From positions 18,810 through 82,809 of the forward strand of contig JAWQFJ010028799.1 in NCBI GenBank assembly GCA_034096865.1: a stretch of 64,000 nt of DNA, written 5' to 3'. Origin of the DNA: Theodoxus fluviatilis. Taxonomy: Eukaryota; Mollusca; Gastropoda; Cycloneritida; Neritidae. A model generated the notes under the pieces. The model had not been told where the DNA came from and did not search any database. It saw nothing but the letters and a program-made list of their open reading frames with translations. Position numbers and translations under genes: made by a program. Each line of letters begins with the position of its first letter. Within the stretch, counting starts at the first letter, position 1. This document shows positions 3,463 to 64,000 of this stretch, piece by piece.

Positions 3463-4310
3463 CAAGAAGGGCAAAGCCCATACGACTCACATGCTTGACC
3501 TTGACCTTTACATGACCTTGACCTTCAGGTGACCTTCAAGGTCAAGACCAATCAACTACACATAGCAATGACATCATACACTAAACTAAGGAATGCTTTA
3601 CACATTTTTCCTACCAAAATACATGTGGCCTTGACCCAAGGTCAAGGTCATTCAAGGTCATGCAACACAAAGCTCTTAATTCAAGACATAGGAAGCACAA
3701 TGGTGCTTATTGGCACTTTCTACCATGAGATATGGTCACTTTTAGTGGTTCACTACCCCATTTTGGTCACATTTCATAAGGGTCAAAGTGACCTTGACCT
3801 TGATGATATGTGACCAAATGTGTCTCATGATGAAAGTATAACATGTGCCCCACATAATTATTAAGTTTGAAACAGTTATCTTCCATAGTTCAGGGTCAAG
3901 GTCACTTCAAAATATGTATACAATCCAACTTTGAAGAGCTCCTGTGACCTTGACCTTGAAGCAAGGTCAACCAAACTGGTATCAAAAAATAGGGCTTACT
4001 TTGCCCTATATACCATGTATAGGTGAGGTATCCAATCTCAAAAACTTCAGAGAAAATTGAGAAAATGTGAAAAATGGCTGTTTTTTAGACAACATTTATG
4101 GCTCCTGCGACCTTGACCTTGAAGCAAGATCAAGTCACTATGTATGTTTTTTGAGGCCTTGTCATCATACACCATCATGCCAAATTGGGTGTTGATAGAC
4201 TTAATAGTCTCCGAGAAAAATCCAACGTTTAAGTTTTTTACGCCCGGACGGACGGACGGACGGACGACACGGGTGAGTACATAGACTCACTTTTGCTTCG
4301 CATGCGAGTC
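3463..4310 (-). mobile_element. Helentron-like non-autonomous repeat, copy H1
   Basis: One of six copies (H1-H6). Read on the minus strand, it starts near 4310 with GACTCGCATGC (GACTCACATGC elsewhere), continues through a short CGTCC/GGGCGT tandem tract, and ends at 3463 with the inverted partner of that 11-mer, a GGGC-TTT-GCCC hairpin and TTCTTG. Subterminal inverted repeats, a 3' hairpin and insertion next to T without target duplication are the features known for Helentron-associated elements. It carries many TGACCTTGA/TCAAGGTCA sites and no coding capacity. Confidence 0.65.
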
Positions 4311-15392: not shown

Positions 15393-16749
15393 TGTGACAA
15401 GGTGCACTTTTGTGCCACCATGACCCAACACTAGTTTTGTTCTTTTAGTGTTAGTTTTGACCTCGGATGTCGAGCTTCGGCTCTCCGATTTCCCGCCCAC
15501 GTGCTGGCTTCTATTTTTTCGCCCCACCCCTTTCTCGTTGCGATGCTCTCGCCCTCAGCTGTTTTCGCCTCCTGCACTCTGCACTGGTGAAGAAGCCTGC
15601 TTTGCTCCGTGGGCTATTTTTGGACGAGGATCTCTTTTTTCCTTTTTGTGTTCTTTACAATCAATGCATTTTTTCATTCTGACGTCATTCGTGACATCAT
15701 TAAACTGACCATGGGGATGGGTTTGCCATTGTGTTTTTTTGTTTAGTCTAGATAGTAGCAATAAAGGGTTAACAAGAAGGGCAAAGCCCATACGACTCAC
15801 ATGCTTGACCTTGACCTTTATATGACCTTGACCTTCAGGTGACCTTCAAGGTCAAGGTCAAACAACTAAACCTACCAATGACATCATACACAAAGAAATG
15901 CTTTACACATTTTTCCTACCAAAATACATGTGACCTTGACCCAAGGTCAAGGTCATCCAAGGTCATGCAACACAAAGCTGTTCATTCAAGACATAGGAAG
16001 CACAATGGTGCTTATTGGCACTTTCTACCATGAGATATAGTCACTTTTAGTGGTTCACTACCCCATTTTGGTCACATTTCATAAGGGTCAAAGTGACCTT
16101 GACCTTGATGATATGTGACCAAATGTGTCTCATGATGAAAGTATAACATGTGCCCCACATAATTATTAAGTTTGAAACAGTTATCTTCCATAGTTCAGGG
16201 TCAAGGTCACTTCAAAATATGTATACAATCCAACTTTGAAGAGCTCCTGTGACCTTGACCTTGAAGCAAGGTCAACCAAACTGGTATCAAAAGATAGGGC
16301 TTGCTTTGACCTATATACCACTTGTAGCTGAGGTCGCCATTCTCAATAACGTGGGAGAAAATTGGAAAAATGTGAAAAATGACTGTTTTTGAGACCACAT
16401 TTATGGCTCCTGTGACCTTGACCTTGAAGCAAGGTCAAGTCACTATGTATGTTTTTTGAGGCCTTGTCATCATACACCATCATGCCACATTTGGTGTTGA
16501 TAGACTTAATAGTCTCCGAGAAAAATCCAACGTTTAAGTTTTTTACGAACGGACGCCCGGACGCCCGGACGGACGGACGACACGGCTCAGTACATAGACT
16601 CACTTTTGCTTCGCATGTGAGTCAAAAAATTGTGAACGCTGTTCCTATTATTCAAGAACCTCCACCCTCCTTTCCTTCTCCCAGTTCTCCATCTACTCTT
16701 CCCCGATCACCACCACCAAATACCCCACCACATCCACTATCCCATTACA
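15393..16749 (+). mobile_element. 5' LTR of LTR-4, split by Helentron-like copy H2
   Basis: Starts TGTGACAAGG and carries AATAAA near 15760. It is interrupted by H2 (15773-16624) and ends CCCATTACA at 16749, giving an LTR of about 505 bases. Four bases later TGGTGTCATCGGCAGGAT (16754) is a plausible primer-binding site. No 3' LTR or right target duplication was found. Confidence 0.6.
15773..16624 (-). mobile_element. Helentron-like non-autonomous repeat, copy H2
   Basis: Full-length copy. By hand I count about 13 exact TCAAGGTCA/TGACCTTGA 9-mers plus several one-off variants in 852 bases. Ends are as in H1: the 11-mer GACTCACATGC near one end and its complement near the other, GGGCAAAGCCC next to the 15773 end, and a GGACGCCC/GGAC tandem tract at 16548-16578. 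Flanks are A on the left and A on the right (T/T in element orientation). Confidence 0.7.
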
Positions 16750-43459: not shown

Positions 43460-43781
43460 GCTTCTCGGCCTTTTGGCTAAGATCAAAGTATATCAAAGTG
43501 TGTATCGAACGTGCTCAAAGGCTCTGTTGGGCTGCGTGCGATCAATCGGCGATAACTTTCACAGCGATCACTCTTCGCCCCAACAGCTTCCGGGCACCTG
43601 CTGCTGCGCGTTTCCCTCGACGTGGAAGACTCACGCCCTTCGGCCGACGCCATCTCTTCCGAACAACCCCCCTCGGCTCTATGCCGTGAGGTTGACCTAC
43701 GTCCTAGAGCCCATGGTTAGTTGCAGCGTGTCTATCCGCTCCCCTGACTGAGCCCGCTCAGCTTTGCTGGGGACGTCCGCC
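43460..43781 (+). mobile_element. 5' end of U2-headed LINE, copy 4: U2 head and 5'UTR
   Basis: GCTTCTCGGCCTTTTGGCTA and the following AGATCAA (43460-43486) match U2 snRNA from about nucleotide 4 to 30. The flank to the left is LINE endonuclease sequence, not a U2 gene, so the head travels with the element and marks its 5' end. The 5'UTR continues to a Kozak-like CCGCCATGG at 43778-43786. Confidence 0.85.
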
Positions 43782-44382
43782 ATGGCGACTGACGTGTACC
43801 TGGTCGATGGGGCCTTCCCCATCCCAGTCCCCATTCCCCCCATCCTCCGCTGTGGCCACTGTAGTCGCCACTCTTTTCAGAGTAAAACCCGCCATGGCGA
43901 TGTGGTAAGGCACATCAGACTTACCCACGCCGACTTAATAGCTCCCCCTCACTCCGACCCCGTCATCAAGTTCCACTGCTCTCTGTGCAGGAACTTTGAA
44001 AATCGCCTGCTCAGTTCCGTGTCAAGGCACTACAACCGTTGTGCCGGCCACCTGCCGCCCTCGTCCTTCCCCGAAGCCGAAATTATCAACGACGCTCTTG
44101 TCCTCCTCTACCCCCCCAGGCCTTCCAAATGTCACATCTGTGACTTTGCCTCCCACGCGGATGGCAATAGAGTGGCTACCAGCCTGGAACATCACATGGC
44201 CCGCCAGCATGGCTTGATGGTCAAGCGAAGGTGGCGGTGTGTGCCAGCTGTCTCGTCCTCATGGAAGGTCTCTCCGCCCGGACGCATACATGCGCCCCCC
44301 AACTGGCCGAGCCCTCTAACAGCCGCCCCAACCCCGGCCCCTGTTCCCCCTCCTCCCCCCCCCCAGAGATCAATCCTCCCCA
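43782..44382 (+). pseudogene. LINE copy 4: N-terminal zinc-finger ORF
   Basis: ATG at 43782 (MATDVYLVDGAFPIPVP) is chosen because copy 2 has the matching start. Three C2H2 fingers follow: CGHCSRHSF...H...H, CSLCRNF...HYNRCAGH and CHICDF...HHMARQH (43849-44220). A one-base shift near 44237 moves the CASC motif and Pro-rich part to another frame. It ends at a hAT-like insertion and resumes at 51634. These fingers would guide target recognition. Confidence 0.75.
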
Positions 44383-44399
44383 CAGACCTGTTTACCTTA

Positions 44400-45183
44400 A
44401 GTTGTGCAAAATAGGGAGATGGGGACTCAAAAATAGGGAGATTTCAATCAAAAGAGGGAGATTTTTATTTTTAGCCCTTACAGCGGTGCTAAAACACGAG
44501 CAAATTAGGCAAACATGCACACCTTTCATTAACTTTGAGATTGCTGATGAACTGTTACAGATAGACACATAAAGTAATAACACAAAATGCTTGAAATTGA
44601 ATGAACAATATTTTGGTGTGCAGTTTATAGTCTTTATTCAAATCCTGATTTTTTTCGGTCAAATTTTATATGGTAAACATTTGTGGGTTTTTCACTCCTT
44701 GAGAAATAATACAGGTAAATCACTATGCAATAGTGGGTAAATACCCTATAAACCCTACTGGATGTTTGGTTTAATCATCTGTGCATACTAATGTATCATT
44801 CTCTTTGACCAAAAATGCACTCTTTAAATTACCATGTAAATTCGATGATCCAGGTATTAGAGAGGCAAAATGAAGTAATTCTGATTACCTATACTCTTTC
44901 ATCTTAACCAATATTCCTCAAATTATTGCAAATGTAGAACTGAATAGCATCAATATGTGGATAATTCAACATGAAAACAGTCTGCAGTAAAGTTTGTCTC
45001 CTACATTCACGATTTGATAATTTGTCTGTAATAAAACTGAAAAATTCTACTGATTTTTGTCATTATGAGACACAAGAAGGCATTACACACTACACAAACA
45101 TTTTCAAAAACTTACCTCAAACCAGCAATACTACAAAAACATCCAGAAAATTGCTATACTCATGAATACCCTTTCATGCAAAA
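44400..45183. other. Left arm of the hAT-like element, no coding signal
   Basis: A/T-rich with GGGAGAT repeats near the TIR (44413-44465). No recognisable motif. Confidence 0.55.
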
Positions 45184-46059
45184 CAAGAAGGGCAAAGCCC
45201 ATACGACTCACATGCTTGACCTTGACCTTTACATGACCTTGACCTTCAGGTGACCTTCAAGGTCAAGGCCAATTAACTACACCTAGCAATGACATCATAC
45301 ACTAAACTAAGAAATGCTTTACACTTTTTTCCTACCAAAATACATGTGACCTTGACCCAAGGTCAAGGTCATCCAAGGTCATGCAACACAAAGCTGTTAA
45401 TTCAAGACATAGGAAGCACAATCGTGCTTATTGGCACTTTCTACCATGAGATATAGTCACTTTTAGTGGTTCACTACCCCATTTTGGTCACATTTCATAA
45501 GGGTCAAAGTGACCTTGACCTTGATGAAATGTGACCAAATGTGATGCGCTCTGACGAAGGGTACACAAAGTCGCTGCAGCGAACCGGCTCTAAGGCGAGC
45601 AGCGCAGGTTGACCTAATTTTTGGCTATTTTGGGATATCTCCATTTTTAGCATCTATAGACCCATTTCTATAATATACATAAGTATTATAGTCAGATTCG
45701 ATCATTTTATTGATACAAAATGACATTAAAGGCTGTAATTATGTCCAATTATAAGCTACAGTTCCCGAATTTTGACGCTACGTGACCGCACACTCCCTCA
45801 AACAAAGCCCTGCATGGCGCATACCGATGGAAAGTTCAGCGTTGGCTCTGTGACGTCATTTCATTCATAGAAACCTTCCGCGGGAAGCGTGGAGGTGTAA
45901 GCCTTCCAAATATGGTAAACAGAAGCTGACATTTAAACCAATCAGAGCAAGCTACGCATTTTCCCCTTGGATACCTGAAAAGACGCCTCTTACGATTGGC
46001 TGAAACGCACCAGGGGAAGTTACTCTTCCATGCTCTGTGTCGATGTGTGGACGAAAAAC

Positions 46060-47610
46060 ATGGCTGAACGAAAGCAAAAACGTCTTGCTTCACTTCTAAA
46101 TCAAAGCAATGCCGCAAATTTGTCTGGTGAAGATCAAATCGAGCTTCAGAGTCTCATCGAAGAGTACTTCATTGAAGATCCAGCCAAAGATGAAAGTGAC
46201 TCTGATGAGGAAACGGACTGCAACGCCGGCGATTTTGACACCGAGTCGGAGAAAGAAAGCGACGCTGAAGACGATGCAGCACCACTAATTCACGAGGAGG
46301 TAGTGACAGTTACCGGAGAAGCTCACAGTTCTTGTGAAGAATTCCACAACCTTGCTGGAAATTTTGCGTTTCCAACTGTCGAAGCAGTTGAACAATTTGC
46401 ATGCAAGTGCAAACAAATCAAAGTTGCGGCCGAATGTGATGTGTGCCCAGAGGAGAGAAGGGGGTGCATTGCCCAGTTCACTCATCAGGAGGTGGTGGAT
46501 TTTCAACTGAATCTCTATGGTATGACAAAAGGTGAGATCAATGTCTTACAGCTCAGGAGTTTATTTTTATTTGGTCATGGCATGAATTAGCAATGTGCAT
46601 GTTCTTTTTTCTCTTGATATTAAATTTCTTTTTTAATGAATAGAGTGGCAGAATTAATGATAATCCAGTGCATTATGCTGATGATGTATATTTTTTGTTT
46701 GATTAATATTTTGTATGCAAGTCACTACTAATATTTACACATCACCTCACGATGGTTGTAAAATGCTGCTATTCACTGCAATGAAAAGAGTATGTATTTG
46801 GAAAGCAAAATGTGATTCTAATTTGTGATTTTGTGAGCATTTATTATAATGATGTTAAACTGTGTACCATTTTGATAGTTTTATCTTTGTTTTCAGATGA
46901 AGTGGACATGATTGTCATGGGGGTTTTTAGTGCCAACATGGCACAGGGCCCCTACACTGAAAGCAGCAAGAAGGGAGCTCAGAAGAAGGAACGCGAGAAG
47001 ACGAGGGTCACCTACACAATCCTGAATCGACTTGTCTGCAAAACTACATTCATGTTTCTTACTGGGTGAGTTATGTTCTGGTAGTGTTATATTTAGTTCA
47101 GTTGCTGCCCTACACATACACCACTGGGTGTACTGGTTAATGATGATGATGATATTTAGTTCAAGGGCGCCTGGTCGTAAGAGCCCCTATATTGTTTGTG
47201 AAGAACGGTGTTATAATATTGAATGTTTTGTCCTGTTTGTCCCTTCAGAGTGTATGTGTGCTTGTTTAAAAAAAATTGTGCAATGTTTTGCAGTGTTGGA
47301 GACAAGAGGTTGAGAAACCTAATGGCCCATTTCAAGGAGCAAGGTGGTCCCTGTCCTCGGCAAAGTAAACGAGGGGGCAGAAAAAACAACACGAAATCGC
47401 TGACCCATGACGACACCAACAGAGTCTTTAGATTCATTCAAAACTACGCGGAAGACCACGCTGTGTCACTCCCTGGTCGTGTTCCTGGCTTCAACAGAGA
47501 CGACATCCTTTTACTGCCATCTTCCACCACGAAAGGACGAGTTCATGAGCTTTTCCAAGCAGCTTGCCAAGAACAAGGTAGCTATATTGTTGTATTTTAT
47601 CTCATAATTA

Positions 47611-47643
<33 letters not shown>

Positions 47644-49044
47644 TGTGCACAGCTACACCAGTAAAATTGGACACATTTTTTTCATTCTCAGCAACAACAG
47701 AAGCTTATAGTTATAAACTTTCATTGGTGTTCTATTTACTTTTTTAGAGGGGAATTTTAATAGCACAAAATCATCATGCTGGGGGGTAATACCCCCCCCC
47801 CCCCCTCTCTCTCTCTCTCTGCCTGTCTGTCTGACTATTTTCTGTTGTTTCTATGCATGTATCTTTCTCTGATAACTGTTTATTTTCTTTGCACAGGTCA
47901 TCGTTCTGTTTGCGTGTCGACCTTCCGGAAACTGTGGGCAGCTCTCCTTCCCTTTGTTGTGGTTTCCAAGCCGATGACCGACCTCTGTTTCGTCTGCCAG
48001 AAAAACAACTACCGAATTTTTCGGGCAGCTAACATAACAGACGAAGAAAAGCAGGAACTTCTTCGGACGCAAATGGAGCACTTGGAGAAGGTCGATGAGG
48101 AAAGATTACTTTATCGCAGGCAGACTGCAGTCAGTAAGGAAGTGGTTGCTGAACAAAGAGTGACAAGTCTGGGCCCCAATCAGCCGTGCAGCAGGGACAT
48201 CACCATGCACTACTCATTTGACTTTGCCCAACAGGTGCATATTCCTCACAGTCCCTACCAGCCAGGCCCTATCTACTTCATGACTCCCAGAAAAGTAGGC
48301 ATATTTGGTGTAAACTGTGAAGGCCTCCCACAGCAAATCAATTATTTGATCGATGAAGGGGCTTCAACAACTAAGGGGTCAAACGCTGTCATCTCCTACC
48401 TTCATCATTTCTTCGGAAACTATGGCCTTGGGGAGTCGCATGCTGACCTGCACTGTGATAATTGTGCTGGCCAGAATAAGAATAAGTTTGTGCTCTGGTA
48501 CTTCGCTTGGCGAGTAATGACGGGCCAGCATCAAACAGTCACCATCAATTTCATGCCTCCTGGCCACACCAAATTCTCACCTGACTGGTGTTTTGGCCTC
48601 CTCAAAAAATGTTTCAGGAAGTCGGAGGTTCACTGCCTTGACGATTTGTGTGATGCAGTTCGACGGAGCACTTCGGTGAAGAAAGTGAATGTTCCTCAGC
48701 TGGTTACCACCGAAAACGGACAAATTCATGTCACGTCATACAACTGGCAGGCCTTCCTCTCTCCGTTCTTCCGACCGCTTCCAGGAATGAAGAAGGTTGG
48801 CCATTTCCGATTCTCGTCAGAAGTGCCAGGCAGTGTTTTCTTCCGAGAATCTCTTGGTGATGATGAAACGGAGTTCAGGATGTTGACGGATGTCCGCGCT
48901 GTGAGAACTCTCAGGGATGCTCTTCCTCCTGTCATCCCACCACCTGGTTTGTCCAGGGAAAGGAAACTGTATTTGTTTCAGAACATCAGGGCTTTTGTCA
49001 CTCCAGACAAACAAGATGTGTTGTGTCCTCACCCCGATGTTTGA
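46060..49044 (+). CDS. Spliced transposase-like gene, four exons, 690 aa, open
   Basis: Exons 46060-46531, 46897-47065, 47294-47577 and 47897-49044 are joined by GT-AG introns with matching phases (1, 0-crossing GGT, 1), giving one open frame to TGA at 49042. ATG 46060 (MAERKQKRL) is used; an in-frame ATG at 46030 is possible. The N-terminus is acidic; CDVCPEERRGC (exon 1) and CFVCQKN (exon 4) may bind zinc. Exon 4 has an RNase H-like pattern: MHYSFDFAQ (D at 48220), LHCDNCAGQNKNK (D at 48457) and PGHTKFSPDWCFG (D at 48583), fitting a DDD catalytic triad. From memory the LHCDNCAGQNKN...GHTKFSPD block belongs to proteins annotated DUF7869. Cut-and-paste activity is inferred from the TIRs and duplication around it. 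Confidence 0.75.
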
Positions 49045-49980
49045 AGAAAGAACACAAAAAACACAAACAAACAAACAATTGAATACAAAGGTGTGAATTA
49101 TTATTTCAGTGTAAACAATTATAATGCTAATAATAATTATTATTCTCTGGACTTAAAAGTGAAAATTGTGGATTTGAAAACTGTGGATTTGAGACACTGC
49201 CTGTCCGGCTTAGACATGTTGTGCTTTGGTGTGGTGATTTATCGCCGCAATCTGGATTATTTATATTCCACAATGGATATATCCTTCTGCTTCAAATGAT
49301 TTTCCTCAACATAAGCCTGCAGCTGCATCTCCATGCTTTCCAGGCAAGTGAATTTGAATGTTCAAATGTTGGTGAACATGTTGCATGGAATCCATGTTTT
49401 GCTCGTTTGTTTGTTTGGTTTAAAACAAACATTTTTAAATCATTAATAATTATTGTTCAATTTGTTGTTATTATTATTATTAATCATGCCATACTAGATC
49501 ATAATCATATTTTATGATTGTTTTCAACAACAGTTTAGTACATGAAACCATTAGAGTTGTTTCCATGATTGTTTTTTTAAGTCATTTCTGTCGCGATTTT
49601 TTGGTTTGAACGCCAAAACATGGTACTTTTTAAAGGCTGTTGTAACAAAAATGTAGGTATCCAGCATAGTAGTTTGCACTTAAATTTATTTAGAGATATA
49701 TGGCCAACATAACTGCCAAGTTTCATTGACTTTGGAGAAGTTTAAACCCCTGTTGCTAAGGAGTTTTTGTGCATACCCAGTTGTTTGTCTTTAAACGGCG
49801 ATTTCTCAAAATGGCGGTTCATACATATGTCGACTTTAAAACAGTTTTACTCAACTTAGAATTAAGCTACAGAAATAAACCTTACACCACCAGAAAGCTT
49901 ATTTCTTGTAGTTTCTTGTGGTACCAAGCACTACATTTAGCCAAAATTTCACTTTGTGTACCTTTTGTGGGAGTGCATCA
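49045..49980 (+). other. 3' non-coding arm of the DUF7869-like transposon
   Basis: A/T-rich 3'UTR and arm with ACAAACAAACAAAC at 49062-49077 and AATAATAATTATTATT-type runs; no ORF of interest. Ends in the right TIR. Confidence 0.6.
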
Positions 49981-50472
49981 CAAATGTGTCTTATGATAAA
50001 AGTATAACATGTGTACTACAATGTTATGAAGTTTGGAACAGTTATCTTCCATAGTTCAGGGGCAAGGTCGCTTCAAAATATGTATACAATCCAACTTTGA
50101 AGAGCTCCTGTGACCTTGACCTTGAAGCAAGGTCAACCAAACTGGTATCAAAAGATAGGGATTACTTTGCCCTATATACCATATATAGGTCAGGTATCCA
50201 ATCTCAAAAACTTCAGAGAAAATTGAGAAAATGTGAAAAATGGCTGTTTTTAGACAACATTTATGGCCCCTGCGACCTTGACCTTGAAGCAATGTCAAGT
50301 CACTTGTATGTTTTTTTAGGCCTTGTCATCATACACCATCATGCCACATTTGGTATTGATAGACTTAATAGTCTCTGAGAAAAATCCAACGTTAAAGTTT
50401 TCGGACGCCCGGACGCCCGGACGGACGAAACGGGTGAGTACATAGACTCCCTTTTGCTTCGCATGTGAGTCA

Positions 50473-51633: not shown

Positions 51634-52033
51634 GGTCACTCTCCTCCTCCACCGGTTCTGAACCCTATGAGGTCGGTGCTTCTGGGCCTGGCTGCCACTC
51701 AGCTCTCTGCCCTCTCGCCCACCTCCACCACCTCTCCGAACCTCCCTGGGGCAGAGCTCCCCCCCTTGGAGAGAGTCCCACCTCTACTCCACATTCCAAC
51801 CCCGTCTCCCCTCCCCTCCCCTTCCCCCCCCCTCTCTGCTTCCCCCCACTCCTCCCTCTCCCCCTACCTCCCTCTTCCCCTCCAACCCCCAGCTCCCCTC
51901 CTGCCCCCAGTCTCCCCATCTCCCGCCTGGTGCACCTCCCCTCAGCCCCTCCCTGTCCCTCCTCAGCTCCCCGACCCCTCCCCCCTCCCCCTCCACATCC
52001 CCCACCCCTCGCCGCCAAGCACTCTGGCCTCCA
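51634..52033 (+). pseudogene. LINE copy 4: Pro-rich linker
   Basis: VLLGLAATQLSAL and a long Pro/Ser/Leu-rich stretch continue copy 4 after the hAT-like element. A frame change occurs before the RT frame at 52034. Confidence 0.65.
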
Positions 52034-53776
52034 ATGTGGTCCCGCTGGGCAGACCGCATTCGCCAGACCACCCTAGACACGCTGGACCAGACTGTCAGGG
52101 ACTTGTCCCAGGACATTGTCTTCACTGCTCAGGACCTCTTGAGAAGTGAGCCAGAGCCAGCCCAGCGTGACCCACGCCCTGAGAACCCCTCTTCAACAAG
52201 GCGTCAGCATAGAAGCCAAGCTAGGCAGCAGCAACGGGTGAGGAGGCGCCTCCACCACCACCCTGAGCAGGCCAGCCTCATTCAGAAACTATACGCCAGA
52301 TACCCACGCAGGGCCATGAGAAAGATTTCTGAAGAGCCCAGGCTCCCCTTCTCTGGCTCCTCAGAGGACCTTTATTGTCACCTCCAAGCCACAGGCAACA
52401 AGCCGCCTCCTAGTCCTTCCCAACTCGATCTGATCAAATCCCTCTACGAGGGCTGTGGCTGGGCTCCGCTGGACAGTGAGGACACCGAGCTCCTCTCGTC
52501 ACCCCCTTCCCTCCGGGAGATCCAACGCAAACTCCGTCGCGCTGTCAACACAGCCCCAGGAGAGGACCAGGTTGAATACCGGCACCTCCGCGCCTGTGAC
52601 CCAACCGGCGAACTTCTGGCTCACCTATTTGAGCTGGTCCACCGGCTGGGCATCCCCACCCAGTGGCGGCAGAGTAGGACTGTCCTCATACACAAGAAAG
52701 GCAGCCTGAACGACCCGGCTAACTTCCGGCCCATCTCCCTACTCAGCTGCCTGTATAAGCTATATAGCGGGGTCCTTGCTTCCAGGCTGGCCTCGGTCGC
52801 GGTCTCCAAAGGCTGGATCTCCCCAGCCCAGAAGGGCTTCATCCCAGGCGTTCATGGTCTGCAGGAGCACCTGTACATCCTGCAGACTGCCATCAGGGAT
52901 GCTGCTGCCAACAAGAAAGACCTCGTCGTGGCCTGGCTGGATCTGGCCAACGCCTTCGGTTCCATCCCCCACCTGGTCCTGGACTCTCTGTTCCAGTCTC
53001 TCCCAATCCCTGACTCCACCAGGTCCGTCCTTCGGGATATCTACTCCCAAACCGAGTCCCACTACAGAGTGGGCAGCACCAACATTTCCTTCCACCCTAC
53101 TGCGGGAGTGAAGCAAGGTGATGGGCTCAGTCCCATCATCTTCAACCTGGCAGTTGAGTCGCTCCCCGTCCGAACCATCCCCGGTGGCCCCGACGAGCCC
53201 TGCCGGCACGGATGTGGCAAAACTGAAACGAGCCACCACGTCACCGGTTTGTGCCCCGGCCTTGCGCCTCTATACCAGCAACACCACGACGCGGTGCAGG
53301 ACATCCTCGTCTCCACCATCAAGCGACACACCGACTTTCCGGTCTATGTCAGAACCCAACTCCCCGACGGTCTAGTTCCGGACGTCACTGCTGACGGCCT
53401 CGACACCCTCATCCTCATCGACGTCTGCTGCCCTATTTTCTGCATGGGAAACGTTTCTTTTTCCTGCAGCACTTCCTGCCTGGTTTCAAAATGGACAGCT
53501 TCCTGGTTAGGCAGCAGACATATACCCAGCATGATGGGCGTCAGGCACCAGAAGGTCGCCAAGTACAGCAGCCATGGCCCCACCCTCCCCCTCATTGTCA
53601 GTACCCTAGGCTCCTGGCTCCCCTCCAACGAGGAAATCACACAGCAGCTGGGCATCCGACCCCGACGCTGGAGATCCGCCAAGAGGCGAATGAGAACCAC
53701 CGCCCTCGAGAAAACCGCCTTCATCGTGGAAGCGTTCCTCCACCAGACACCTCAGGAGGAAAATCACACGGCCTGA
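52034..53776 (+). CDS. LINE copy 4 RT N-half fused in frame to the array RLE domain (580 aa open)
   Basis: Bases 52034-53160 encode the LINE RT from MWSRWADRIRQTT through EDQVEYRHLRACDP, RTVLIHKKGSLNDPANFRPI, SKGWISPAQKGFIPG, VAWLDLANAFGSIPH and GVKQGDGLSPIIFNLAVE. At 53160/53161 the frame passes straight into LPVRTIPGGPDEPCRHGCGK, the zinc motif and PD...D core of array unit 3, with the 27-codon insert and a stop at 53776. The YADD catalytic box and thumb are skipped, so RT activity is not expected. The frame is longer than any other in the LINE copies and has no stop. Read as the junction of a 3'-truncated LINE insertion, not as a natural gene. Confidence 0.7.
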   Translation: MWSRWADRIRQTTLDTLDQTVRDLSQDIVFTAQDLLRSEPEPAQRDPRPENPSSTRRQHRSQARQQQRVRRRLHHHPEQASLIQKLYARYPRRAMRKISEEPRLPFSGSSEDLYCHLQATGNKPPPSPSQLDLIKSLYEGCGWAPLDSEDTELLSSPPSLREIQRKLRRAVNTAPGEDQVEYRHLRACDPTGELLAHLFELVHRLGIPTQWRQSRTVLIHKKGSLNDPANFRPISLLSCLYKLYSGVLASRLASVAVSKGWISPAQKGFIPGVHGLQEHLYILQTAIRDAAANKKDLVVAWLDLANAFGSIPHLVLDSLFQSLPIPDSTRSVLRDIYSQTESHYRVGSTNISFHPTAGVKQGDGLSPIIFNLAVESLPVRTIPGGPDEPCRHGCGKTETSHHVTGLCPGLAPLYQQHHDAVQDILVSTIKRHTDFPVYVRTQLPDGLVPDVTADGLDTLILIDVCCPIFCMGNVSFSCSTSCLVSKWTASWLGSRHIPSMMGVRHQKVAKYSSHGPTLPLIVSTLGSWLPSNEEITQQLGIRPRRWRSAKRRMRTTALEKTAFIVEAFLHQTPQEENHTA

Positions 53777-59103: not shown

Positions 59104-62100
59104 ATAAATGGCATACTGCTCACTCTCCTGCAAAACTTCATCAAGCTGATGCAGCTCCGCCCTTGATGTGACTGGGAGCTGCACAGCTGGCTCCATGACT
59201 GAAGTGCTTTCTGGCAAAGGTCCAACAGCACCTCCACCTTGCCCTCTGAGAATGTCCAGGATGCAATCAAGTTTTTGACTGACATCATTGAAGCCCCTGG
59301 ACACCTCTTTGTATTTGTAGAAGAGCTTGTCCACCTTTGCTTCTAGCCCTGAATAAAAAGTTCAAGGGATGTAGGTTACAAAACAAATGTGATCCATTCA
59401 AGGTGACAGAGACCTATCTGCGCAGCATGCAATTTTCCCCCTCATTCCTCTCCACCATAAACGGGAACATTTGTCATCATCAGATGAGATCGAATTAATG
59501 TTTTTATTCAAACACCACCTCATTTGTAGTTAATACCTTTTAGTTACAGTTCTGCAGGTTTACTTCAAAACTGATGCTTGCATTGCAGGCATTACAGTGA
59601 CACTATGACTATGAGCAACCCACAAAAAAGCCTTTTTTTTAACTTCATATGTTCACAGAAATATGAGAATTTAAGATACACCAAACTTGTCATACAGTTT
59701 GGTGGTACAAGCAGTTGCTGCTGAGATTTCTTGTGAATACCTAATACATGATTTCATGTGCCATTTCAAAATGAGAAGACTACAGAAGAGAAGAGGTAAA
59801 GCACAAAATAGATACTGTAGGCATTCAGGAATTTGACTATTGGTGCCTCCAAATCATATTATGCTTACTTGATGTTTCACTCCGATCTACTCTCTGACCA
59901 GCAGTTTTGTAGTAGGGCTGCTCAGGTGTTTCCTGGTGAGATGTTGGCACCGTTGAGGTCCACTGAGGCATGGAGAGTGCTGAAATGACATATGAATAGT
60001 TTGAAACAAAATTTAATAGGTTGATCAGGACTGTAGGAATTTAATCAATATTCTGAGACAACAAAAGCAGAAAATTACTAATGAAAATATAGAAGTTTTT
60101 ATTTTATTTTTATAGCTCCTTGTGTTCGGTTTACCAACAGGTTTCTCCCCTCTTGTTAATAGACCAAAATAAACCATTACAAGAAGGGCAAAGCCCATAC
60201 GACTCACATGCTTGACCTTGACCTTGACATTCAGTGACCTTCAAGGTCAAGGTCAAACAACTAAACCTACCAATGACATCATACACTAAGAACTGCTTTA
60301 CACATTTTTCCTACCAAAATACATGTGACCTTGACCCAAGGTCAAGGTCATCCTAGGTCATGCAACACAAAGCTGTTAATTCAAGACATAGGAAGTACAA
60401 TGGTGCTTATTGGCACTTTCTACCATGAGATATGGTCACTTTTAGTGGTTCATACCCCATTTTGGTCACATTTCATAAGGGTCAAAGTGACCTTGACCTT
60501 GATGATATGTGACCAAATGTGTCTCATGATGAAAGCATAACATGTGCCCCCACAATTTTAAAACTTGAAACAGTTGTCTTCCATAGTTCAGGGTACAGGG
60601 TCACTTCAAAATATGTATACAATCCAACTTTGAAGAGCTCCTGTGACCTTGACCTTGAAGCAACGTCAACCGAACTGGTATCAAAAGATAGGGATTACTT
60701 TGCCCTATATATCATATATAGGTCAGGTATCCAATCTCAAAAACTCCAGAGAAAATTGAGAAAATGTGAAAAATGACTGTTTTTTAGACAACATTTATGG
60801 CCCCTGCGACCTTGACCTTGAAGCAAGGTTAAGTCACTATGTATGTTTTTTTAGGCCTTGTCATCATACACCACCATGCCACATTTGGTATTGATAGACT
60901 TAATAGTCTCCGAGAAAAATCCAACGTTAAAGTTTTCGGACGCCCGGACGGACGAAAAGGGTGAGTACATAGACTCACTTTTGCTTCGCATGTGAGTCAA
61001 GAATTACATCAGTCATTGAAAGAAAGAGTACACTGAAAAATATAATTATGATAAGTAATCATTAAACATTTTAACCATTTCCCAAATTTGGAAAGGTATG
61101 GAGAAACAGGTGAGATTTATAAATAAGAGCTAGTGTTTATTCTATCTATGCCTTTGACCCCTCCTGGGGCATAGGCCGCTAACAATGGTTCTCCAGCCCC
61201 CACGGTCCTGAGCAATCTTTTCCAACTGTCCCCAAGAGTGGCCTGTTCACTTGACATTGGCGTCCAGGTCTCGGCGCCAACTGTTTCGAGGTCGACCTCT
61301 CTTTTTCTTCTCTTGCATTTGGAGCTCAAGATACCTGTCCATCAAAACAAAGACCAGGATTTTCAACACCAATGATAAGTCTGTTCTGCTCTACGGCGCC
61401 GAAGCATGGAGGACCACTGTAACCACCAACAAGAAGATCCAGACATTCATCAACACATGTCTGCACCGCTTTCTACAGATACGATGGCCTGAAAAGATCA
61501 GCAACGAGGAGCTCTGGCAGCGCACAAACCAACAATCAGCAGACCAAGAGATCATTCAAAGGCGCTAGAGATGGTTAGGGCACACATTACGCAAACCGGT
61601 CTCAAACAATACCAGACAGTCCCTTTCATGGAACCCGCAAGGGAATAGCTAGTGTACATCCCAAATATTTCCAAGATAGGCAGGGGATTTATGAAGTACA
61701 TGGAACATGATTAAAAAGTAGGATTCCTTTATGTATAAAAGGAGATATACAGTTAAAACAGCAAAACAGAGCAACTGCTTGACTTGACATCAAAGCTAGA
61801 GAAGCACTGCATAACCTATAAACACAACTGATCAAAGCCTTTGTGTTTACTTGGGGTTTTCTTGCTCTGCACCGTTTCCGCTTTCGGCCACACACTTCAG
61901 CAGCTACAGATATGACATCAGACGTATATTGGCCTTTCCTCTCCATTTCAATGATCTTTTCCCAGGAGGCTGTACAAACAAACAAAAAGACAAATGAAAT
62001 AAACTAAAATGGGTGAGCATGGAATACATGAATACTGAAATCTGCTGGTTTATTATGGGAATAGCAAAACATTGTTTAGCACCTCAAGGCTTACATGGCT

Positions 62101-62469
62101 TACACAGGATTCAAGAACTCATTTCAGCATTTCAAGGCCTACAATACAATGATAACCATTGGAACCAATAAGATCGAGAAGTTTAAAGTAAACAAAGAAA
62201 ATGGAGGTCAACATGCTAAATTGAAAGGAAAACAAAGAGACAATAACAGCATACATACCACTTGATCCAAGAACGCGGACCTTGTGGAGTGTCCACTCAG
62301 ACCCTGGTTCACAATGGCTCCTCACCAGTCGTGATGAGAACTTTGGAGGCCACCAGGTTTGGCATGGTGCACCATCACGTCCTCGAACTACCCTTGTCTC
62401 ACTGACAATCCCTGATGCCAGTGAGCCAGTCTGGTCTTCTTCTTCCAAAAGCTCCACTAGGTAGTACAT
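59104..62469 (-). CDS. DUF4806-like gene, four exons visible, 3' end missing
   Basis: Minus-strand exons 62469-62259 (ATG, MYYLVELLEEEDQTG), 61969-61851, 59962-59869 and 59348-59104 are all bounded by AG/GT and join in phase (1, 0, 1, 0) into 223 open codons. Exons 1-2 give WWPPKFSSRLVRS, EWTLHKVRVLGSS, WEKIIEMERKGQYTSD, the N-terminal block of invertebrate proteins that end in DUF4806; exon 4 gives a coiled-coil DKLFYKYKEVSRGFNDVSQKLD and LPVTSRAELHQLDEVL, the start of a DUF4806-like region. Function is unknown in the family. The last exon (donor TAT|GTAAG at 59103) has no partner before the Tigger/piggyBac block. Exon 3 acceptor could be 59973 instead, but only 59962 keeps the frame. Confidence 0.6.
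60180..60999 (-). mobile_element. Helentron-like repeat, copy H4 (intron of the DUF4806-like gene)
   Basis: Full copy with both 11-base subterminal repeats, the GGGCAAAGCCC hairpin and a short GGACGCCC tract (60946-60956). Lies in intron 2 of the minus-strand gene. A few half-sites are mutated (CAACGTCAACC, AAGGTTAAG). Confidence 0.75.
61137..61646 (-). mobile_element. Twin-primed RTE-type LINE insertion
   Basis: Flanked by a 9-base duplication AGCTAGTGT (61128-61136, 61647-61655). The minus-strand part (61325-61137) encodes KCKRRKREVDLETVGAETW to the LINE C-terminus; the other part (61330-61646) is inverted and encodes, on the plus strand, LSIKTKTRIFNTNDKSVLLYG, SNEELWQRTNQQ and SLSWNPQG. 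In RTE-type LINEs NPQG is followed directly by K-R-K-R-G-R-P-R, so the two parts are adjacent pieces in opposite orientation. It lies in intron 2 of the DUF4806-like gene. Confidence 0.85.
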
Positions 62470-62586
62470 GATGAAACTGGGATGCCCAAAGAGAGAGAGA
62501 GAAACAAAAGACTTTCACATCATATTACTGTCACAACAAACAGCTACCACTTCTTGCCTCTAGGAAAAGATAAACAATCAAATACA

Positions 62587-64000
62587 CAAGAAGGGCAAAG
62601 CTCATACTACTCACATGCTTGACCTTGACCTTTGCATGGCCTTGACCTTCAGGTGACCGTCAAGGTCAAGGTCAAACAACTACACCTAGCACTGACATCA
62701 TACACTAAGACAAGAAGGGCAAAGCCCATACGACTCACATGCTTGACCTTGACCTTTATATGACCTTGACCTTCAGGTGACCTTCAAGGTCAAGGTCAAA
62801 CAACTAAACCTAGCAATGACATCATACACTAAGAAATGATTTACACATTTTTTTCCTACCAAAAAAACATGTGACCTTGACCCAAGGTCAAGGTCATCCA
62901 AGGTCATCCAAGGTCATGTAACACAAAGCTCTTAATTCAAGACATAGGAAGCACAATGGTGCTTATTGGCACTTTCTACCATGAGATATAGTCACTTTTA
63001 GTGGTTCACTACCCCATTTTGGTCACATTTCATAAGGGTCAAAGTGACCTTGACCTTGATGATATGTGACCAAATGTGTCTCATGATGAAAGTATAACAT
63101 GTGCCCCACATAATTATTAAGTTTGAAACAGTTATCTTCCATAGTTCAGGGTCAAGGTCACTTCAAAATATGTATACAATCCAACTTTGAAGAGCTCCTG
63201 TGACCTTGACCTTGAAGCAAGGTCAACCAAACTGGTATCAAAAGATAGGGCTTGCTTTGACCTATATACCACTTGTAGCTAAGGTCGCCATTCTCAATAA
63301 CGTGGGAGAAAATTGGGAAAATGTGAAAAATGACTGTTTTTGAGACCACATTTATGGCTCCTGTGACCTTGACCTTGAAGCAAGGTCAAGTCACTGTGTA
63401 TGTTTTTTGAGGCCTTGTCATCATACACCATCATGCCACATTTGGTGTTGATAGACTTAATAGTCTCCGAGAAAAATCCAACGTTTAAGTTTTTTACGGA
63501 CGCCCGGACGGACGCCCGGACGCCCGGACGGACGCCCGGACGGACGGACGACACGGCTCAGTACATAGACTCACTTTTGCTTCGCATGTGAGTCAAAAAG
63601 CTTTACACATTTTCCCTACCAAAATTCATGTGGCCTTGACCCAAGGTCAAGGTCATCCAAGGTCATCCAAGGTCATGTAACACAAAGCTCTTAATTCAAG
63701 ACATAGGAAGCACAATGGTGCTTATTGGCACTTTCTACCATGAGATATAGTCACTTTTAGTGGTTCACTACCCCATTTTGGTCACATTTCATAAGGGTCA
63801 AAGTGACCTTGACCTTGATGATATGTGACCAAATGTGTCTCATGATGAAAGTATAACATGTGCCCCACATAATTATTAAGTTTGAAACAGTTATCTTCCA
63901 TAGTTCAGGGTCAAGGTCACTTCAAAATATGTATACAATCCAACTTTGAAGAGCTCCTGTGACCTTGACCTTGAAGCAAGGTCAACCAAACTGGTATCAA
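62587..64000 (-). mobile_element. Helentron-like repeat, copy H5, split by H6 and running off the window
   Basis: 62587-62710 is the 124-base terminal part and 63597-64000 its continuation (CTTTACACATTTTCCCTACC onward). Removing H6 restores the canonical order ACTAAGA...CTTTACAC with no duplicated bases. Confidence 0.8.
62711..63596 (-). mobile_element. Helentron-like repeat, copy H6, inserted into H5
   Basis: Complete 886-base copy with clear borders, CAAGAAGGGC at the left and GAGTCA(A) at the right, given by the interrupted H5. The tandem tract GGACGCCC/GGAC is expanded (63498-63550). It closely matches H2 throughout, including the CCACTTGTAGCT variant. Confidence 0.8.

Follow-up and report, generated by a model that had tools for sequence, protein, structure and literature searches.

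The question raised by the stretch of DNA considered here, a window of 64,000 nucleotides from the neritid snail Theodoxus fluviatilis (contig JAWQFJ010028799.1), is whether a DUF7869-type gene lying between inverted repeats encodes the transposase of a mobile element and, if so, to which kind of transposon that element belongs. With good confidence, positions 45541-49981 can be read as a transposon with terminal inverted repeats (TIRs), flanked by AAAT, whose DUF7869 protein is likely its transposase with a triad of three aspartates (DDD), and which would move by cut-and-paste and is most likely of the Sola2 type. The protein, for which an RNase H fold is predicted, is judged very likely to serve as transposase for a mobile family with TIRs on account of the shared ends, the 4-bp duplications, the near-identical copies, the deletion derivatives, the predicted fold and the conserved DDD triad; the initial annotation had proposed as much.

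Ends, target site and copies of the element

The element occupies 4,441 bp of the forward strand and runs from GTGATGC to GCATCAC, with its boundaries given by the ends common to other copies in the genome searched (965 Mb in 19,668 contigs) and by empty sites. The inverted ends first described as TGATGC/GCATCA are real, with the boundary itself shifted to 45541 and 49981. The TIRs, proposed to be of about 30 bases, measure 31 bp (left, forward strand, 45541-45571; right, reverse strand, 49951-49981) and match each other at 26 of the 31 positions. In contrast, the 6-bp duplication CAAATG has to be given up in favor of a 4-bp AAAT (45537-45540, and 49982-49985 adjoining the right TIR). The longer version appeared on both sides because a C precedes the left AAAT and a G follows the right one; other copies share the same TIR ends but differ in their 6-mers (e.g., TAAATG on the left and CAAATA on the right in contig C6021). 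A perfect 4-bp repeat is found in 7 of the 8 copies having both ends and flanks: the window copy, C6021 and C2511 have AAAT, and C13712, C7694, C5439 and C1939 have ATAT. Among the single-ended copies, ATAT adjoins the left end in C18036, C2146 and C6007 and the right end in C6639, and C3080 has ATTT; C2740 has Ns in its left flank, and C13383, C3550 and C1808 are partial. Since the edge A and T of the 4-mer occur in all seven copies, a 2-bp WW duplication with the TIR TGTGATGC...GCATCACA is a formally equivalent description. Either way, the family shows the combination of TIRs and a fixed-length target duplication by which DDE/D cut-and-paste elements are recognized.

The empty sites point in the same direction, as the initial annotation had already noticed. 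The left flank (45481-45540) and the right flank (49982-50045) are parts of a single host repeat. A query made of 60 bases of each flank joined by one AAAT returned, after removal of the rows that did not span the junction, 11 matches at ten distinct places, five of them inside the window, with AAAT present once in each. Repeat copies with CAAGGTCAAGGTCA-type runs lie at window positions 3760-3879, 16065-16184, 60459-60575, 63016-63135 and 63775-63894.

A pattern covering both TIRs had 22 exact matches in the genome, as against none for a reversed control, and all 22 fall on contigs known from earlier searches with the ends, of which the left gave at least 17 matches and the right at least 15. 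On account of these low counts, and the confinement of the pattern matches to known contigs, the family looks small rather than like a large repeat. Four copies are near-identical to the window element, with no substitutions over 4,428 (L009), 4,365 (L011) and 4,441 (L012) aligned columns and two over 4,437 (L010), the remaining differences being length changes; three of the four terminate at a contig end short of the right terminus. The exon 4 protein is 100% identical at four places in the genome, the window included; in L012, the copy on C6021, this exon is apparently frameshifted, with the protein match falling into two overlapping pieces. Further, several copies are internally deleted, and some of the junctions left by these deletions are found on more than one contig: 1858|3312 occurs three times, 1854|3470 twice, and 909|3257 is common to C7694 and C5439. 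Non-autonomous derivatives moved in trans would look like this.

The DUF7869 gene and its predicted product

The claim of an intact four-exon gene is borne out. The predicted transposase gene lies on the forward strand, with exon 1 (46060-46531) beginning at the ATG at 46060, followed by exons 2 (46897-47065), 3 (47294-47577) and 4 (47897-49044); its three introns have GT-AG boundaries and keep the frame, giving a product of 690 amino acids with a single terminal stop. The product matches the Pfam DUF7869 model (PF25273) with 64.7 bits and E=1.1e-17, the gathering cut-off being 26 bits. The closest protein, P0001, is an uncharacterized 686-residue protein of Littorina saxatilis with 99% identity, which, compared with the window product, is without four residues at the end of exon 1.

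Exon 4 encodes the predicted catalytic RNase H-like domain. The three acidic residues singled out at the outset, i.e., D417, D496 and D538 at positions 48220, 48457 and 48583, are confirmed, being conserved in 76, 77 and 76 of 78 sequences. An RNase H fold containing them is supported by a predicted model and by structural matches made without a residue-by-residue superposition of the active sites; the structural relatives include retroviral integrase and mariner Mos1, at 6-15% identity among the 50 matches listed. Neither copies of the gene lacking the TIRs nor a predicted fold lacking an RNase H-like site came to light. A sequence search of the PDB with exon 4 gave three rows, all unrelated (best E 0.86), and an NCBIfam scan of P0001 gave nothing near the cut-off.

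In terms of mechanism, the protein would bind the 31-bp TIRs, with D417, D496 and D538 (window numbering) holding two metal ions. It would then excise the element and join its 3' ends to AWWT targets with a 4-bp stagger, and gap repair would create the 4-bp duplication. Intact copies probably moved the internally deleted ones in trans.

Relatives and neighbors of the element

Of 7993 candidates scored in a protein search, 592 are relatives at E<=0.001; in the list of 120 of these, the proteins with names belong to molluscs, echinoderms, annelids, a priapulid, a nemertean, fish, corals and a sponge. A search with P0122 delineated a distant DUF7869 clade (P0122-P0178; 57 proteins including the query), mostly without names; its 57 rows include two proteins named from Macrobrachium and one from Frankliniella. 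A length-shifted protein search aimed at long transposases of protists retained 3 of 11 candidates, none of them so named. A second snail family is represented by L013, whose protein shows 57% identity in exon 4; the exon 4 match (L006) contains one stop codon. Its element is bounded by GTGACCCTCCA and TGGAGGGTCAC, with ATAT on both sides and a right end in common with L015. It sits in a host repeat of the same kind as that of the window element, an uninterrupted form of which, with one ATAT, stands at window 45444-45460. The CAAGGTCAAGGTCA-type repeat has been the target of two different families of the DUF7869 transposon type. Element ends were looked for and not found in a further DUF7869 family of this genome (L014, L016 and L017), where the coding part is closely followed by a long tandem array in L014 (5339-7436) and L016 (5042-8685).

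When bacterial and archaeal genomes were scanned with alignment A1, 85 stretches matched, 12 of which encode relatives. The eight longest cover the catalytic core at 31-36% identity in open frames of 577-668 amino acids (the shortest is truncated at a contig end), and come from Desulfobacterales and other delta-proteobacteria, among which Desulfocicer vacuolatum DSM 3385 is an isolate, from a Nitrospirales and a Legionellales metagenome-assembled genome (MAG), and from Thiomargarita. The genes at L061-L068 and L071 are intronless, and inverted repeats of 39-64 bp flank 8 of the 12 loci (L061-L065, L067, L068 and L071), delimiting seven elements of about 2.1-2.7 kb and one of 3.5 kb. Perfect flanking 4-mers occur in three of these eight (AAAT in L062, AATT in L065 and ATTT in L071), and the outer A and T stand at the expected place in all eight. 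These loci look like a bacterial insertion-sequence family, and the bacterial relatives would work likewise, as simple insertion sequences. The D triad is invariant across 15 aligned proteins, seven of them animal-type and eight bacterial. Convincing inverted repeats were not found at L066, L069, L070, L072, L078-L080 and L082-L084, several of which are short or contig-cut stretches. L069 and L072, from a sponge-symbiont MAG, may be host DNA.

Surveys with the Pfam model found matches in 7 of 389 genomes of one bacterial order, five of the loci being known from the A1 scan and two new (L080 and L081 are L066 and L068 found again), and in 1 of 398 genomes of one phylum, this being the query genome itself. 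A search of plasmids with the Desulfocicer protein gave no match, and of 15 pattern matches in viral contigs none was confirmed. A tree of 42 rows (23 from the main clade, some of them unnamed environmental sequences, 8 from the P0122 clade and 11 bacterial, with L072 left out) places the bacterial rows outside the animal rows, except for L069, which joins them at their base by a long branch. The bacterial neighbors nearest to the animal rows are L064 and L068 (96/82), and the P0122-clade rows lie far from the main clade. Because the tree is rooted at its midpoint, and the program warns of long branches, it gives no direction of transfer.

Beyond the element itself, a reverse transcriptase domain (RVT_1, E=2.4e-17) is encoded in a 701-residue open frame at 51671-53776 on the forward strand, and a frame upstream, at 43752-44411, shows C/H spacing reminiscent of zinc fingers and has no Pfam match at E<=0.01. 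The two are possibly parts of one retrotransposon interrupted by the region of the element.

Alternative explanations and known superfamilies

Several observations weigh against the main reading of the element. The eighth two-ended copy, C399 (approximately 60983-63798), has a right end minus its last two bases and carries 12 bases of its left flank again on the right, possibly as an aberrant insertion, and C2221 has a left flank that is not AWWT and a truncated right end. The deletion derivatives C7694 and C5439 combine different left flanks with an identical right flank; since 400 bp are identical, their right flanks count as one and are not fully independent, with an assembly chimera or a rearrangement as the suggested explanations. 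Among the bacterial elements, the left and right 4-mers of L061, L063, L064, L067 and L068 differ in one middle base, the flanks in Desulfocicer vacuolatum being an imperfect AAAT/ATTT, and a search with the Pfam model gave one match in each of five bacterial genomes, i.e., no multi-copy cases, and none in 14 control genomes. With Foldseek alone, the best PDB match (1.3e-3) missed the threshold of E<=0.001. Finally, it is from the duplication and a DDD triad that the assignment to Sola2 is drawn.

The alternative that fares best, albeit an improbable one, is that DUF7869 is the transposase of a DDE/D superfamily distinct from Sola2, with the AWWT preference in common by chance. In its favor, a sequence link between DUF7869 and Sola2 could not be made, the TIRs are longer than those published for dictyostelid Sola2 elements (see below), and an NCBIfam scan of four bacterial relatives brought no model, and no transposase model, near the cut-off. 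DUF7869 is also named in none of the 5.39 million papers searched, which do not take in subscription papers or Repbase reports. On the other hand, the duplication agrees with those published for Sola2, and a protein so widespread in animals would be unlikely to have been missed by repeat databases. A broader form of this proposal, for which we likewise see a rather low probability, holds that DUF7869 is one transposase superfamily across bacteria and animals, outside the described ones, with an animal branch derived from bacterial elements; it would comprise animal TIR elements with AWWT targets together with insertion sequences of bacteria, most of them 2.1-2.7 kb long and bearing inverted repeats of some 40-64 bp.

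It is very improbable that DUF7869 is a passenger gene in an element moved in trans by another protein. The deletion derivatives do show movement, past or present, without an intact gene. However, outside the exons the element contains no stop-to-stop frame above 126 amino acids, and ten such other frames lack a Pfam match at E<=0.01; the DUF7869 protein itself has the predicted DDD/RNase H core, and its gene is paired with inverted terminal repeats in two snail families and eight bacterial loci. A domesticated host gene amplified by segmental duplication, with the inverted repeats coincidental, could account for the right flank shared by C7694 and C5439, but is scarcely credible given the empty sites at a precise 4-bp target, the matching duplications that adjoin differing flanks in the remaining two-ended copies, and the deletion junctions shared in different flanks.

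A DUF7869 transposase would supply a likely function for a large "unknown" animal family, many named members of which are stored as "uncharacterized protein", and could shift DUF7869 annotations from host genes to mobile DNA. Moreover, the window element is intact and has near-identical copies, exact ends and an exact target, which makes its activity directly testable. The bacterial insertion-sequence-like carriers, the less expected part of the result, bear on the origin of the animal elements.

As for known systems, retroviral integrase and mariner Mos1 differ from DUF7869 in their catalytic domains at the low identities given above, and have other targets and ends. Dada and IS3EU make 6-bp duplications, from which the window family departs in the differing 6-mers of C6021. 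Zator/ISAzo13 (PF07592) gives weak matches below the Pfam cut-off in 3 of 10 DUF7869 proteins scanned (E 0.051, 0.13 and 0.018), which extend to the neighborhood of acidic residues two and three; the 4-bp duplication does not fit, that of Zator being 3 bp in PMC10045372. piggyBac and Kolobok also make 4-bp duplications, but they are TTAA-specific according to PMC9587614, which the AAAT, ATAT and ATTT targets do not fit.

The likeness in target duplications makes the window element probably Sola2-type, and its superfamily probably not an undescribed one. Sola transposases, according to a 2009 abstract, reportedly have a DDD triad, the yardstick against which the D/D/D triad of the window family is set, and Sola is said to be present in bacteria; if so, the bacterial DUF7869 relatives would fit Sola too. 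At the level of the superfamily the novelty first claimed is doubtful, since PMC3627910 gives the AWWT 4-bp duplication for Sola2. The window family and the protein-level link to DUF7869 may, however, be unrecorded; the motif GQNKN led, judged by title, to no transposon paper in the literature searched. A Repbase list covering the Sola2 group is given in PMC4455052. In PMC3627910, dictyostelid Sola2 TIRs are 12-13 and 21 bp long, as opposed to 31 bp in the window family. By the same paper, both have TIRs, both have a large transposase (888 amino acids in one published Sola2 case, 690 in the window), and the AT-rich AWWT duplications of Sola2, including ATAT, AAAT and ATTT, parallel the AAAT or ATAT of 7 of 8 window-family copies and the ATTT of one single-ended copy.
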